Shown: piece by piece, positions 54,293 through 59,855 of the stretch
Numbering within the stretch: position 1 is the first letter of the stretch
Layout of the letters: the number at the start of each line of letters is the position of its first letter
Assembly (NCBI GenBank): GCA_903901045.1
Contig: CAIUPP010000100.1
Coordinates: forward strand, 1 to 64,000
From: an uncultured Planctomycetota bacterium
GTDB taxonomy: Bacteria > Planctomycetota > Brocadiia > CAIUPP01
Direction: 5' to 3'
Length of the DNA stretch: 64,000 nucleotides
Notes under the pieces: generated by a model
Database searches by the model: none
Seen by the model: the letters and a program-made list of their open reading frames with translations, nothing else
Told to the model about the DNA's origin: nothing
Position numbers and translations under genes: made by a program

Positions 54293-55213
54293 TCAACGTC
54301 GTTCGCGATACCATGCCGCCGTCTTCGCCATCCCCTCTTCGAAACTCACCATCGGCTTCCAGCCCAATTCGCGGCGCAGGCGGGAGGCGTCCAGCGCGAT
54401 GTGACGCACCTCCCCCTTGCGGAAATCGGTGTGGACCGCTTCAGCCTTCGCCGCGAGCGCGTCGCGGATGGTTCGGTACACCTCGTCGTCGGTCACCTGC
54501 CGGCCCGTCCCCACATTATAAATCCGGCCGTCCCCGCCGGCCAGCGCCAGGGCGTTGGCTTCCACAATGTCCTGGACGAAGACGTAATCGCGCGTCTTAC
54601 TGCCGTCGCCGAAAATCTGGGGACTGCGCCCGGCCAGCAGCAACTGGCTGAACACGGCCACGACGCCGGCCTCGCCGTGCGGATCCTGGCGCGGGCCGTA
54701 GACGTTCGCATAGCGCAGGATGGTCGTTCGCATGCCATAGAGGCTGCCGAACAGTTCGAGATATTTTTCGGCGGCGTACTTGGATGCGCCGTAGGGGCAG
54801 AGGGGGCGCACCGGGGTCTCTTCGTTGGCGGGGATGCGCTCAGGGTCGCCGTAGCATGCGCCGCCGCTGGAGATGTAGATCAGCTTGCCGCAGTGCGCCT
54901 TCGCGGCGGCCTGGAACAGGCGGATGGATCCCAGCACGTTCATCTCGGCGTCGAAGACGGGGTCCTCAACCGACCGGCGCACGTTCACCTGCGCGGCGTG
55001 GTGGGAGATGACTTCCGGCGCGAATTGGAGCACCGTCTCCTCCAGGCGCGGGTCCATCAGGCTCATTTCGTAGAACCGGCATTTCGGGTTCAGGTTGGCC
55101 CGCTGTCCGGTGGAGAGATTGTCCAGCACCGCCACCTCGTGGCCGAGCGCCACGTAACGGTCCGCGACATGACTTCCGATAAATCCTGCGCCGCCTGTGA
55201 CGAGTATCCTCAC
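54293..55213 (-). CDS. NAD-dependent sugar-nucleotide epimerase (GalE-like)
   Basis: This 306-aa short-chain dehydrogenase/reductase of the extended type has the NAD motif TGGAGFIG at the start, active-site Ser in YISSGGACYG and Tyr141/Lys145 in PYGASKYAAEKY. The start is GTG at 55213 behind GGGAG with eight bases between; a longer frame upstream is not supported. Members convert UDP-glucose to UDP-galactose or act on related sugars for surface polysaccharide. Position next to PilZ fits a link of c-di-GMP with polysaccharide (inference). Confidence 0.9.
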   Translation of the reverse strand: MRILVTGGAGFIGSHVADRYVALGHEVAVLDNLSTGQRANLNPKCRFYEMSLMDPRLEETVLQFAPEVISHHAAQVNVRRSVEDPVFDAEMNVLGSIRLFQAAAKAHCGKLIYISSGGACYGDPERIPANEETPVRPLCPYGASKYAAEKYLELFGSLYGMRTTILRYANVYGPRQDPHGEAGVVAVFSQLLLAGRSPQIFGDGSKTRDYVFVQDIVEANALALAGGDGRIYNVGTGRQVTDDEVYRTIRDALAAKAEAVHTDFRKGEVRHIALDASRLRRELGWKPMVSFEEGMAKTAAWYRERR

Positions 55214-55364
55214 GCTATGCGCTCCCAAACAATTCTGCCGCGCTGGAGGGCGGCGCCCGCTGGTATGATTGACCGTGAGAAGTATATCACGATGCCCACC
55301 GGACGCCAATCCCTGGCGGGGCGACTGTGCCGCATGCGGCGTCTATCGTTGCCCTGGAAATACG

Positions 55365-55392
55365 GAAGGCAGGAGGGGGGCCTCCTGCCTTC
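55365..55392 (-). terminator. Terminator of the secreted-protein gene
   Basis: A perfect 12-bp stem, GAAGGCAGGAGG and its complement around a four-base loop, lies 24 nt after the stop codon at 55417. No long U tract follows on the minus strand. Confidence 0.6.
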
Positions 55393-55416
55393 TGAACGCT
55401 CGGTGCGAATGAAACG

Positions 55417-56127
55417 CTACTTGGCCTTGGGCTTCGCCTTCGGAGCGGTCGTTGTGGTAGCCGGCTGCGCGGGAGCGGGGTTCACCGTCAGGGCGTGGGT
55501 GAACTTGCCCGCCTTGATCTCGCCGGTCGCCTGGGGCGAAGTGAGCGTCAGCTTGATCAGGAGTCCGTCGGTCGCGCCGACGACTCCCGCCTTCCAGGCC
55601 ACGGTGGAGGGGTCGCCGCTGGAGATGAGTTCATCCTGGCCGGAACCTGCCCCCGGGCCGCTGCTCTTCTTTGCGGTGGCGGCTTTGCCGGCGGTCTTTC
55701 CCCCCTCGGGGACGTTCAGCTTGTGCGAGGTGCCGTCGTCGAACGCGAACTTCCTCACCACTTCCGCCGTGCCGCCGGTCACCTTCACGTAGCCATCCCA
55801 GTTGGAGTACTTATCCTTGCCGCCCTTCTGTATCAAATTGTTCAAATCGCCCCAGTCCAGGAAGACGTAGGCGACGTACTTGTCGCCGGCCGGCTTGGAG
55901 GAGGTCGTGAAACCCTTCACCATGTCCTGGTCGCTGTTCTTGAACTCGAAGGTGTCGGCTTGCGTAGCCTTCAACTGCTTCATCAACTTCGCTCTTCCCT
56001 CGGTTGCCGACAACTTGCTGGTTGCGGCCTGCGCCGTCGCGAAGGAGGCGGCCATCAGAATTCCGGCGACTGCGATTCCCTTGAGCGCTCCCGTCACGAA
56101 TCTTGAACCTGTCATCGTTTTCTCCAT
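55417..56127 (-). CDS. Secreted protein of unknown function, ECF-controlled
   Basis: This 236-aa protein has a signal peptide (cleavage near AQAATSK). A mature domain of about 110 residues has Trp/Tyr-rich strands (YVAYVFLDWGDLNNL, YSNWDGYVKV), a Gly/Ser/Lys linker, a second beta segment and an Ala/Pro/Lys-rich end. No family is recognised. The likely start is the ATG at 56127 behind AAGGA; 56115 is possible. A promoter with ECF-type hexamers and a leader hairpin identical in spacing to the gene at 57693 precedes it, so both are probably under the same sigma factor. Confidence 0.8.
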   Translation of the reverse strand: MEKTMTGSRFVTGALKGIAVAGILMAASFATAQAATSKLSATEGRAKLMKQLKATQADTFEFKNSDQDMVKGFTTSSKPAGDKYVAYVFLDWGDLNNLIQKGGKDKYSNWDGYVKVTGGTAEVVRKFAFDDGTSHKLNVPEGGKTAGKAATAKKSSGPGAGSGQDELISSGDPSTVAWKAGVVGATDGLLIKLTLTSPQATGEIKAGKFTHALTVNPAPAQPATTTTAPKAKPKAK

Positions 56128-56149
56128 TCTCTTTTCCTTCGTACTCGTC

Positions 56150-56163
56150 GCGGGACGCCCCGC
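56150..56163 (-). promoter_or_regulatory. Leader hairpin of the secreted-protein mRNA
   Basis: GCGGG and CCCGC form a 5-bp stem with a four-base loop, 16 nt downstream of the GCACTA element. The same hairpin at the same distance is found at 58276-58289. It may stabilise the 5' end of the transcript. Confidence 0.55.
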
Positions 56164-56179
56164 ACACGGCTCAACCTGC

Positions 56180-56207
56180 TAGTGCTTGCGTGTCATGAAA
56201 AGGTTAC
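56180..56207 (-). promoter_or_regulatory. ECF-type promoter GTAACC-N16-GCACTA, copy 1
   Basis: On the minus strand GTAACC (56202-56207) and GCACTA (56180-56185) are separated by 16 bp. An AAC in the -35 element is typical of ECF sigma promoters. The identical pair with the same spacing occurs at 58306-58333. Confidence 0.7.
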
Positions 56208-56235
56208 ATGGCTGACGCGATACCTGCGTCCGATT

Positions 56236-56754
56236 CTAATCCTGCGCCGCATCAGGGGTGGTTGGGGCGGGACGTTCGCGCTCGCGTTCACGGCGCGGCG
56301 GCCTTGCCTGATCCGGTTCCTGAGCGCCGGCAGGGGCCCAGCGTCGCCGCAAGTCCGACGCCGTCTCGTGCCACTTCTTCTGCTGCTTCGGGGTCAGCAC
56401 CGCCGAAATATCCTTCTCCGTCTGGTCGAACTGAGCTTGAGCCTCCGGCAATATTTCCTGCCGCAGGCGGGCCATGGCGTGCGCCTGATCCTGCAGAATC
56501 CGGTGCACTTTGCTCTTCTGATCGGCCGTCAGGTCCAGGCGGCGGGACAGCCAGCGCGTTCCCTGCTCGGCGCGCAATTCCGGACTGCGCACGGCGGCCT
56601 GCGTCTGGCGCAGCACGTGCGACAGCATCAGCCCCGCGCCGCAGACGACGCCGCTCAGGAACACCACGACAAGGAGCGCCCACATCAGCCAGCGCCGGCG
56701 TTTGGGCGCGGGGGCCAGGTGCGTCGCTTCCTGCGTTGTGACGGGCTCGCTCAT
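56236..56754 (-). CDS. CnrX/Spy-like periplasmic metal-sensor protein
   Basis: This 172-aa protein is anchored by one N-terminal helix (about 22-45). The periplasmic part is helical with two LTxxQ-type motifs (LDLTADQKSKVHRIL and VLTPKQQKKWHE), and the tail is Arg/Pro/Glu-rich. These are the features of the Metal_resist/CpxP-Spy group. It is the third gene of the sigma operon, and the ATG at 56754 overlaps the stop of the preceding gene as ATGA. By analogy to CnrYXH it would sense a metal and control release of the sigma factor (inference). Confidence 0.78.
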   Translation of the reverse strand: MSEPVTTQEATHLAPAPKRRRWLMWALLVVVFLSGVVCGAGLMLSHVLRQTQAAVRSPELRAEQGTRWLSRRLDLTADQKSKVHRILQDQAHAMARLRQEILPEAQAQFDQTEKDISAVLTPKQQKKWHETASDLRRRWAPAGAQEPDQARPPRRERERERPAPTTPDAAQD

Positions 56755-57017
56755 AGGACCCCCCATCCCGAAAGCTCATGCAGCCATCCCTGCCATGGCT
56801 CGGCCAGTTCTATCCAGGCGACATACCCCACCCATGCGCAGATCAGCGCCGCGGCGGCCGTGGCGGCGGCGAATCCGACAAACCACCCGTTCGCCGGCGC
56901 CGGAGCCTGCTGCGCCCCCTGGAGCCGGCGCAGGACGCACGCGGAGACATCAGGCGTCGGCGCCGCTTCCCAGCGCGCTCTCTCGGCCCATCGGTCGAAT
57001 TGTCTCATCATATCCAT
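56751..57017 (-). CDS. Small membrane protein, probable anti-sigma factor
   Basis: This 88-aa protein has a cytosolic N-terminal half of about 45 residues (MRQFDRWAERARWE, VSACVLRRLQG) and one membrane helix (about 46-68). No zinc-binding anti-sigma motif is visible. The call rests on position: one base after the sigma gene stop and overlapping the sensor gene. This matches the CnrY place in CnrYXH-type systems. It could start at internal ATGs at 57011 or 57008. Confidence 0.6.
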   Translation of the reverse strand: MDMMRQFDRWAERARWEAAPTPDVSACVLRRLQGAQQAPAPANGWFVGFAAATAAAALICAWVGYVAWIELAEPWQGWLHELSGWGVL

Positions 57018-57018
57018 C

Positions 57019-57609
57019 TTATTCCGCGCCTCGACTTCCGAATTCCGCGATCTGTTCCAGCGCCTTCTTCAGGCGCGCTCGCGCCCGCCAGGCCTGGACT
57101 TTCACCATCGTCGCGCTCCATCCCGTGCTGCCGGCGACCTCCGCCACGCTCTGGCCCTCCAGGTGCATTAGCGTCAGCACCAGCCGGTCGCGGGGGGCCA
57201 GCGTTGCCAGCGCCCGGTGCACCAACTCGCCCGCCTCCCCCGCGCTGTAGCCGGTCGGCTCCTCCGCCATGCGCGCGGCGAAGCTCTCATCCAGCGGCTT
57301 GATTTCCTGCCGTTTGCGGCCGGCGCGCCAGAAGGCCAGCCCGGTGCGCATGGCGATCTTTCGCAGCCAGTGCTCGAACGGACCCGTCCCGCGGTAGCCG
57401 CGCAGGCTCAGATACGAGGCGACGAAAACCTCCTCCACCAGTTCCGCATGCGCCGAGGCGTCGCGCGTGAAGCGCCACATCTGCCGGGCGACGGCCCCCT
57501 GGTGCCGGTGCACCAGCCGGGCGTAGGCGACGCCGTCCCCGTCCTGCGCGAGGCGCACGTCCTGCCGGTCTTCCACGGCCGGAGAAGTTTCTTGAGTTGC
57601 GTGGTTCAT
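57019..57609 (-). CDS. ECF-type RNA polymerase sigma factor
   Basis: This 196-aa protein has region 2 (AYARLVHRHQGAVARQMWRFT, ELVEEVFVASYLSLRGYRG) and region 4 (LAPRDRLVLTLMHLEGQSVAEVAGSTGWSATMVKVQAWRARARLKKAL). No region 1 or 3 is present, as usual for the group. I start at 57609; an upstream in-frame extension is not supported. It leads the operon with the small membrane protein and the sensor. The GTAACC-N16-GCACTA promoters nearby are its best candidate targets. Confidence 0.93.
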   Translation of the reverse strand: MNHATQETSPAVEDRQDVRLAQDGDGVAYARLVHRHQGAVARQMWRFTRDASAHAELVEEVFVASYLSLRGYRGTGPFEHWLRKIAMRTGLAFWRAGRKRQEIKPLDESFAARMAEEPTGYSAGEAGELVHRALATLAPRDRLVLTLMHLEGQSVAEVAGSTGWSATMVKVQAWRARARLKKALEQIAEFGSRGAE

Positions 57610-57692
57610 GGCCCCACAGTATAGACGCGCCGCCCCGCTGATGAAAGGCGTCACCAGCGGGGCAGGGGCGTCACAACTCAAGAATGCCGAGA

Positions 57693-58235
57693 TCACTTGC
57701 CGCCCATCTCACCCACGGCTTCGTCCTTGTTCTGCTGCATCGCGTCGAGCGCTTCGTCGATCTGCGTGCGCTGCTCGGGGGTCAGGATCGCCATCACTTC
57801 CTGGCGGACCTTGGCGCGCAGCACGGAGGCGTTGCCGATGGCGGTGCCCATCGCGGCGGAGGCTGTCTTGATCGCCGTCTCATCCACCTTGTCGGCGCGC
57901 ACGGCGGCCAACAGCGCCTTGTGCGTGTCGTTGAGGCTCGTCAGCGCGGACGCGATCTCATCCTTGTGCGTCTGAAGCACCGCGTGAATCTTCTGCGTCT
58001 GGTCATCGGTCAGCTTGAGCTTTTCCTTCAACTGGCGGCGGATCGCTAGGTTGTCGAAGAAACAGTGGAACAGCGGGCCTTCCCCCGCAGCCAGCTTCTG
58101 GCCGACCTTGGGCGTCGCGGCATCGGCCTTGGCCGGCTTATTCGCCTTCTGCGCGAACGCCTCGCCGGCCAGGAGTACGCCGCCGACCAGAACGGCCGTC
58201 ATTGCCAAACCTGCGATAAACCTTGACTTGCTCAT
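57693..58235 (-). CDS. Spy/CpxP-like secreted protein, ECF-controlled
   Basis: This 180-aa protein has a signal peptide ending near GEAFAQKAN. The mature part is all-helical, with LKLTDDQTQKIHAVLQTH and MAILTPEQRTQIDEAL, the paired LTxxQ motifs of Spy/CpxP/ZraP proteins. The short FHCFFDNL segment before the first helix could contact metal. The ATG at 58235 follows GGAGAG. It lies upstream of the sigma gene and has its own ECF-type promoter with leader hairpin, so it may be an effector of the envelope or metal response. Confidence 0.85.
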   Translation of the reverse strand: MSKSRFIAGLAMTAVLVGGVLLAGEAFAQKANKPAKADAATPKVGQKLAAGEGPLFHCFFDNLAIRRQLKEKLKLTDDQTQKIHAVLQTHKDEIASALTSLNDTHKALLAAVRADKVDETAIKTASAAMGTAIGNASVLRAKVRQEVMAILTPEQRTQIDEALDAMQQNKDEAVGEMGGK

Positions 58236-58275
58236 TGCTCTCTCCAAATATGGTCCCTTCATACGACTTCTCAGC

Positions 58276-58289
58276 GCGGGACACCCCGC
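58276..58289 (-). promoter_or_regulatory. Leader hairpin of the Spy-like mRNA
   Basis: This is the same GCGGG/CCCGC stem as at 56150-56163, again 16 nt after the GCACTA element. Only loop bases differ. Confidence 0.55.
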
Positions 58290-58305
58290 GGACTGTTCAA
58301 AATGG

Positions 58306-58333
58306 TAGTGCGCGGCGGGGAGGGGCAGGTTAC
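58306..58333 (-). promoter_or_regulatory. ECF-type promoter GTAACC-N16-GCACTA, copy 2
   Basis: On the minus strand GTAACC (58328-58333) and GCACTA (58306-58311) are again 16 bp apart. The spacer sequence differs from copy 1, so the two hexamers are conserved above background. Confidence 0.7.
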
Positions 58334-58403
58334 AGGGGGATAATTGATAATTGAGGATCGATGAGTGATGGTTGATGATTGAGGCGTCGGGACCGCGCCT
58401 CCC

Positions 58404-59855
58404 TCAGCGCGCGTCCATTTCCTTCAGGAACCGGTTGATCTCGAATTCCAGCCAGTCTTTCTCGGCCTGATCCAGCTCCGTACCGAAGCTCACCTTGGTT
58501 CCCATGAAGGAGAGCTTGTACACCGGGCTTTCGTTCTGCTTGTACGAGACGACCTGCGTCACGAATTGCCCCGCCGTGCGGTCGGCGGAGGCGTCCTTGT
58601 TGCGGTTCATGAAGGTGGTGCGCAGCACCACGCGGTCGCGCTCAATGGAGAGGTACTTCTTCGAGCGCGCTCCCCTGAGGGCGAAATAGAACATCACCAC
58701 GCCGATGCCGACGAACAGGATGCCCATGGGGATCACCGGCCAAGCACCCCGGTCAAGGGAACCTTTGCGGATCATCTGGAACGCGAAGATACCGAAGACG
58801 GTGAAGCTGATCGCCGACCAGAGGAGGCTGAAGAAGAGCATGGCGCCCGGCGTGCCCTTGAATCCATGAGGGGGGCAGAAGACCGCCATGAGCTCCGGGT
58901 GAGGACGCTCGATGACAATCCGGGTCTTCTCCGGAGGCGGCACCACGCGCGTCGCCTCCGCTTCGGCCGCCTCCAGTTCCGGCGGAACGACTTCCTGCGC
59001 GCGCTCGAAGAGCAGCGGGGCGCTCTTGCCGCAGCGCGGGCAGTCCAGGCGCATCTCGCGAGTGGAGATCGCCGCGGGCCCCAGATCCGCCGTGCAGAAG
59101 GGGCACGCCGCCCGGCGCGGCACTTCGCGGCGCGGGATGATCAGCGCACCGGGCTGATTGTTCGACCGGTCCAGGAAGTCGTTGATGACGCCGGCCACCG
59201 TGCTTCGCCGCTCCGGCGCGACCATCGCTCCAAATCCCAGCGAGCCGCCGTTGCGCGAGCGCAGTTCCATCGGCGGACGGAGCGCCGGCTTCTGCCCCAT
59301 GCGGGCGTTGCTCGCGTTGGTGATGACCGGGAACTCATGCCAATGGCAGATCGTTGTTTCATCCAGCATGGCCCCGCGGGTGTACCCGAACGGCCCGACC
59401 GACCAGCGCCGCTCCGCCTTCGCCGGCTCGATGATCACCTTGACGCGCCCGAACAGGATGAACAGCGCGAGCGATAGTTCCAATATCCCCACGACCCAGA
59501 AGGGGAGGCTGAACAGCAGACTGAAGAGCCGGAAGAAGCCGTGTTCTCCGCTTCTGCCGAAATCGAAGTAGATCAGGAAGCCCCACCAGACGGCGGCAAA
59601 GATGAGCAGAAAGATGCCGATAGGGGCGGTCTGCTTCGAGCGAACCGAGTACTTCAGCGTCAGGCGGCTTTCCTCCACGCTCAGCGAATAGCCTTGGGGC
59701 GGGGAATCGGAGGGCAACTGGGGGCCGGCGGCGCGTTCAGGCGCGGGCAAGCAGCGCCAGAGCGTTCCGCAACTCTGGCAGCAGGCCACGCCGGAGTCGG
59801 GGTTGATCCGCTCCTCGGAGATCGGATTGTCGCAGGCGCGGCAGGTGAGTGGCAT
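58404..59855 (-). CDS. Zinc-ribbon membrane protein of unknown function
   Basis: This 483-aa protein starts with a zinc ribbon (CRACDNPI ... CCQSCGTLWRC). Two membrane helices follow (about 78-100 and 113-137), then a cytosolic domain with PH-like strands and a second ribbon (CPFCTADL ... CPRCGK, about 255-285). Two more helices (about 337-360 and 373-395) and a C-terminal beta domain complete it. The two halves look like a duplication of ribbon, helix pair and beta domain. No catalytic motif is seen. It is a single gene 82 nt before a REP-like hairpin. Confidence 0.8.
   Translation of the reverse strand: MPLTCRACDNPISEERINPDSGVACCQSCGTLWRCLPAPERAAGPQLPSDSPPQGYSLSVEESRLTLKYSVRSKQTAPIGIFLLIFAAVWWGFLIYFDFGRSGEHGFFRLFSLLFSLPFWVVGILELSLALFILFGRVKVIIEPAKAERRWSVGPFGYTRGAMLDETTICHWHEFPVITNASNARMGQKPALRPPMELRSRNGGSLGFGAMVAPERRSTVAGVINDFLDRSNNQPGALIIPRREVPRRAACPFCTADLGPAAISTREMRLDCPRCGKSAPLLFERAQEVVPPELEAAEAEATRVVPPPEKTRIVIERPHPELMAVFCPPHGFKGTPGAMLFFSLLWSAISFTVFGIFAFQMIRKGSLDRGAWPVIPMGILFVGIGVVMFYFALRGARSKKYLSIERDRVVLRTTFMNRNKDASADRTAGQFVTQVVSYKQNESPVYKLSFMGTKVSFGTELDQAEKDWLEFEINRFLKEMDAR

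Follow-up and report, generated by a model that had tools for sequence, protein, structure and literature searches.

Two matching promoters and leader hairpins at a probable ECF sigma factor regulon of an uncultured planctomycete

In an uncultured Planctomycetota bacterium, an envelope-stress switch comprised of a sigma factor, a membrane inhibitor and a periplasmic sensor very probably activates itself and two genes for exported proteins through two matching promoters. The DNA analysed, here called the window, is positions 1-64,000 of contig CAIUPP010000100.1 (GCA_903901045.1); the genome around it spans 4.77 Mb in 154 contigs, and all genome counts come from pattern searches of it. We read the locus as a small, positively autoregulated ECF sigma regulon, CnrYXH-like in its working, with two promoters and with leaders that carry an RNA hairpin, and we assign this reading as a whole a probability of about 0.8.

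The gene cluster and its proteins

Five genes lie together on the minus strand in the order Spy-like protein, ECF sigma factor, 88-aa anti-sigma candidate, membrane-anchored sensor and secreted protein. These genes, and the gap that follows the first of them, are as follows.

57693..58235, minus strand: putative first target gene, a Spy/CpxP-like (LTXXQ) exported protein (PF07813 and PF13801; CpxP/Spy structures)
57611..57692, minus strand: intercistronic gap from the Spy-like gene to the sigma gene, containing a stem-loop of 13 bp, GCCCCGCUGGUGA-CGCCUU-UCAUCAGCGGGGC (folding)
57019..57612, minus strand: ECF sigma factor, 197 aa as read from the ATG at 57610 (Sigma70_r2, Sigma70_r4_2, TIGR02937)
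56751..57017, minus strand: single-TM anti-sigma candidate, 88 aa, CnrY-like in size and topology (conserved small ORF)
56236..56751, minus strand: membrane-anchored Spy/CnrX-like sensor (read from 56751; the frame is open as far as 56766)
55417..56127, minus strand: putative second target gene, a 236-aa protein with an N-terminal signal peptide (ORF)

An earlier note on this DNA described the two targets as flanking the sigma operon; they do form one cluster with it, but the arrangement is not symmetric.

The Spy-like protein belongs to the LTXXQ family (PF07813, 4e-11, 44.0 bits against a cutoff of 24.3), also exceeds the cutoff of PF13801 (5e-9), and matches the CpxP and Spy structures in a profile search; its signal peptide was recognised by reading the sequence rather than by a predictor. 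The sigma factor features regions 2 and 4 and lacks regions 1 and 3, as defines the ECF class (sigma-70 group IV), with Sigma70_r2 (2.7e-8), Sigma70_r4_2 (6e-11) and TIGR02937 all above cutoff. The 88-aa single-TM protein has no match in a Pfam search and, from its sequence and position, is a candidate anti-sigma of the neighbouring sigma factor.

The sensor is recognised by a family profile built across homologous loci, and a search with the sensor profile matched Spy structures, with CnrX absent among the matches. All of its Pfam matches fall below cutoff, including PF13801 (Metal_resist) at E 0.025, and of eight sensor family members, two reach PF13801 with an E of 0.01 or less. The structure model is all-helical with an N-terminal hydrophobic helix; a structural search with it returned no matches at E up to 0.001. 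The secreted 236-aa protein has no Pfam match above cutoff and no NCBIfam match. Its homologues are partial (36-44% over parts) and occur in three other genomes of the 392 searched in the phylum; the shared promoter was not found upstream of the homologues at loci L189-L191.

The sigma gene follows the Spy-like gene after 82 nt, and the promoter upstream of the latter probably drives both. The gap between them is strongly folded (MFE -43 kcal/mol, z -4.3); a terminator-like T-run was looked for after its stem-loop and not found. This stem-loop might make the Spy message more stable or reduce expression of the sigma factor.

Promoters in the window and at homologous operons

The two promoters and the transcription starts predicted for them are listed here.

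56180..56207, minus strand: ECF promoter 1, GTAACC-N16-GCACTA, an exact match to the family motif (boxes GTAACC 56207-56202 and GCACTA 56185-56180)
58306..58333, minus strand: ECF promoter 2, GTAACC-N16-GCACTA, an exact match to the family motif (boxes GTAACC 58333-58328 and GCACTA 58311-58306)
56172, minus strand: predicted transcription start 1, T at -1 and G at +1 (family-wide initiator 7/8 nt past the -10 box)
58298, minus strand: predicted transcription start 2, T at -1 and G at +1 (family-wide initiator)

The sensor and secreted-protein genes are separated by a gap that contains promoter 1. Each promoter is part of a longer composite on the minus strand, GTAACC-N16-GCACTA-N16-GCGGG(G[C/T]GT)CCCGC, at 56207-56150 and 58333-58276, and the earlier note, which placed it before the secreted-protein and Spy-like genes, described it correctly to the base. 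Its remark that equal spacings go with differing spacer sequence is also accurate, as the -35/-10 spacers share 5 of 16 bases, as expected by chance. Agreement is 9/16 in the 16-nt gaps and 13/14 in the hairpins; the TTGA common to both gaps is mostly due to the start signature described below. The predicted leaders measure 45 nt (from 56172) and 63 nt (from 58298).

The exact pair GTAACC-N16-GCACTA occurs twice in the 4.77-Mb genome, both times at this locus, with a hairpin 16 nt downstream and an exported-protein gene next; roughly 0.3 occurrences are expected by chance, as estimated from base composition. Within the window the zero-mismatch sites are distinct, and the 17 sites with two or three mismatches bring the total to what shuffles give. 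A relaxed search of the genome for further targets yielded six sites, a number that its reversed control also reached, and both boxes are exact at the window sites only.

Homologues of the sigma factor are present in 40 of the 392 genomes sampled across Planctomycetota (~10%), and most of their loci keep both the sensor gene and, between it and the sigma gene, the small single-TM ORF. Homologous operons were found in MAGs labelled Planctomycetota, Phycisphaerales or Armatimonadetes, and many loci have a Spy-like gene just 5' of the sigma gene, as the window does. Another genome of the same family has no close homologue of either the sigma factor or the Spy-like protein at the threshold used.

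Upstream of the sigma gene, within 1.3 kb, 11 of 63 loci carry an exact GT[A/T]ACC-N15/16-NCACTA, against a mean of 0.045 and a maximum of 1 among some 200 pairs of permuted boxes. The spacing is tight at 15/16, with no matches at 12-14 or 18 and one at 17. Throughout the remaining 1.2 Mb of strand-sequence of these loci, the exact motif recurs only as the second promoter of the window (56207-56180) and as a divergent promoter at locus L040. With a weight matrix built from the 11 exact sites, about 45-46 of the 63 loci have a site scoring over 11 bits, some of these sites being long-range or doubtful, and some homologous operons have no convincing site. On the opposite strand the matrix gives six matches above 11 bits, the three strong ones of which (L040, L120 and L111) are candidate divergent promoters. 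The closest sigma relative, at L037 (55% identity), keeps GTAACC, and its CACTA box is not clear. After the -10 box, the aligned sites feature T at position 7 (70%) and a purine at position 8 (90%), which has the form of a normal start-site signature; both window sites fit it.

The motif is thus conserved at homologous Planctomycetota operons and near-absent elsewhere in the genome, which strongly supports the proposal of the earlier note that it is the signature of the sigma factor's regulon; at the level of sequence, this promoter-regulon claim is well supported. A conserved promoter upstream of the factor's own operon likewise points to the autoregulation expected of an ECF factor. GT[A/T]ACC-N15/16-NCACTA with a T/purine start gives a widespread planctomycete ECF clade a clear, testable promoter, and a limited literature search found no experimental study of this clade. 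The present locus also ties it to a Spy/CpxP-like envelope chaperone.

Two of the opposite-strand sites have neighbours of their own. At L040, GTTACC-N15-CCACTA lies 291 nt upstream of the sigma gene, before a gene for a 190-aa Gly/Arg-rich exported protein that may be a second target in another genome. At L120, GTAACG-N16-CCACTA immediately follows the sensor gene, an arrangement also found in the window, and stands 1538 nt past the start of the sigma gene; CGCCG-CGGAA-CGGCG follows 16 nt past CCACTA, and the first long ORF downstream resembles an AraC-type regulator.

The leader hairpins

Both predicted leaders carry nearly the same stem-loop.

56150..56163, minus strand: leader hairpin 1, GCGGG-GCGT-CCCGC, GCGGGGCGTCCCGC, at about +10 to +23 from predicted start 1
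58276..58289, minus strand: leader hairpin 2, GCGGG-GTGT-CCCGC, GCGGGGTGTCCCGC, at about +10 to +23 from predicted start 2

The dyad GCGGGGNGTCCCGC occurs exactly twice in the 4.77-Mb genome, both times here. The looser GCGGG-N4-CCCGC is found in 27 places, so the dyad by itself is ordinary and its placement is what matters: that two of the 27 stand at equal offset behind the sole two exact promoters of the genome is not ordinary. Unrelated leader pairs reach at most 11 identical bases, against 13 of 14 for the window pair. Folded from the predicted starts, both leaders give the GCGGG/CCCGC stem-loop from about +10, with some nine bases before it. Neither whole leader is more stable than its shuffles (z -1.3 and +0.2), and an Rfam search of 54800-59500 gave no match at the gathering score.

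Beyond the window, the hairpin does not accompany the promoter. Leaders of the family have a mean fold z of -0.34 in the first 45 nt and -0.15 in the next 45. With the window left out and loci chosen by promoter score alone, strong leader stems number 3 of 41 against 2.3 expected in shuffles (p 0.40), or 6 of 51 against 3.3 once weak promoters are included (p 0.09). Stems outside the window are therefore at chance, and the hairpin is not a regulon-wide element of this sigma class. An early count in favour of such an element (9 of 48 against 3.3 expected) included loci added for their visible hairpins, and the recount removed the excess. L037 instead carries CGAGC-GAGG-GCTCG as its stem, at 17 nt; no clear leader stem was found by eye in its family relatives L199 and L200.

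The one close look-alike comes from two species of a distant genus (L156 and L157), where GTAACC-N16-CGATTG-N13-GCGGG-AGCGT-CCCGC precedes the same operon. This hairpin, GCGGGAGCGTCCCGC, stands behind the GTAACC box, some 680 nt ahead of the sigma gene, and its stem and loop core nearly equal those of the window. Between the two species the hairpin is identical and the downstream leader highly conserved, and the promoter spacer has diverged. The likeness is suggestive only, because it was noticed post hoc among about 60 leaders at a locus of ~73% G+C. The earlier note's view of the hairpin as an additional conserved element is thus supported for the two window promoters and this look-alike, but not for the promoter class; the hairpin is a real, shared element specific to the locus.

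As to function, the hairpin most likely works at the level of the RNA, by way of stability or as a shared post-transcriptional handle, and not in sigma recognition. Alternatively, it could be a DNA dyad, the operator of a second regulator just past the start site, which we regard as possible but on the unlikely side. At +10 to +23, such a dyad could plausibly serve a repressor or act as a roadblock, and the near-identity of the two copies, loop included, at identical distance would suit an operator, as would the almost identical sequence in the distant genus; the cluster, however, shows no regulator gene. The short 3-bp lower helix also differs on both sides between the leaders (CGU/ACG and CAG/CUG), which weakly favours RNA structure, as there are only two leaders and the register slips by one base.

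A further possibility, which we consider unlikely, is that the promoter-leader blocks are copies left by a duplication and that the hairpin has no function. The blocks lie 2.1 kb apart within one cluster, and most homologous promoters have no hairpin, yet the spacers agree no better than stated above, the flanks are unalike, and a near-identical hairpin precedes the same operon in the distant genus. Given the diverged spacers and flanks, any such copy would be old, with the hairpin kept while neutral bases diverged.

Within the preferred reading of an RNA element, a more specific version is that both messages carry a sequence-specific 5' hairpin for a dedicated RNA-binding factor or small RNA, with the hairpin of L156/L157 being the same element, kept or acquired. 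We hold this to be decidedly unlikely; if true, an ECF regulon would have a second layer, a post-transcriptional one. Finally, that promoter and hairpin are coincidental matches and the genes use other promoters is highly improbable: matches with up to three mismatches in all are as numerous as in shuffles, but the promoter is conserved across the family and unique in the genome.

Proposed mechanism and known systems

We propose that the membrane-anchored periplasmic Spy/CnrX-like sensor and the 88-aa single-TM anti-sigma keep the ECF sigma factor inactive until an envelope signal, presumably misfolded protein or metal, releases it. The freed sigma factor would then transcribe the Spy-like chaperone gene, followed by the sigma, anti-sigma and sensor genes, from one GTAACC-N16-GCACTA, and the adjoining secreted-protein gene from the second. 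Transcripts would begin about 8 nt past the -10 box, and each leader, of 45 or 63 nt, would present about nine bases and then the GCGGG-N4-CCCGC stem-loop. Should the hairpin be functional, the locus would offer a case in which a promoter and an RNA element are both common to one regulon.

Stem-loops of the ompA type at the 5' end stabilise mRNA (reviewed in PMC7509114). Like these, the window has a leader stem-loop on messages for exported proteins, but the roughly nine bases predicted before the main stem would weaken such an effect.

The first target resembles the envelope-stress chaperones Spy and CpxP, both in its LTXXQ domain (PF07813) and in the CpxP and Spy structures that it matches. 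Those chaperones are under CpxRA/BaeSR control, whereas an ECF sigma factor would take that role at the window locus.

Among characterised ECF factors, sigmaF of Caulobacter crescentus uses promoters of the form GTAACC-N16-CGAA and governs a small regulon to which the promoter of its own gene belongs (PMC3511200). The -35 hexamer and the 16-nt spacing are identical to those of the window; the -10 element (GCACTA here, CGAA there), the phylum and the response genes differ.

The window and CnrYXH both encode together an ECF sigma factor, a small membrane-bound anti-sigma (a candidate in the window) and a periplasmic sensor. A single-TM anti-sigma candidate of this kind sits beside the sigma gene in most of the homologous loci. 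Because the relation of the sensor to CnrX falls below cutoffs, the window system is a possible member of the CnrYXH family. The gene order in the window is sigma-Y-X, and the putative targets are a Spy-like protein and an exported protein of no known family rather than an efflux pump. CnrYXH of Cupriavidus metallidurans, which responds to nickel and cobalt, has sigma-dependent promoters before its regulatory genes and adjoining targets (PMC9045368), and the window likewise places its promoters before the regulatory operon and before an adjoining target gene.
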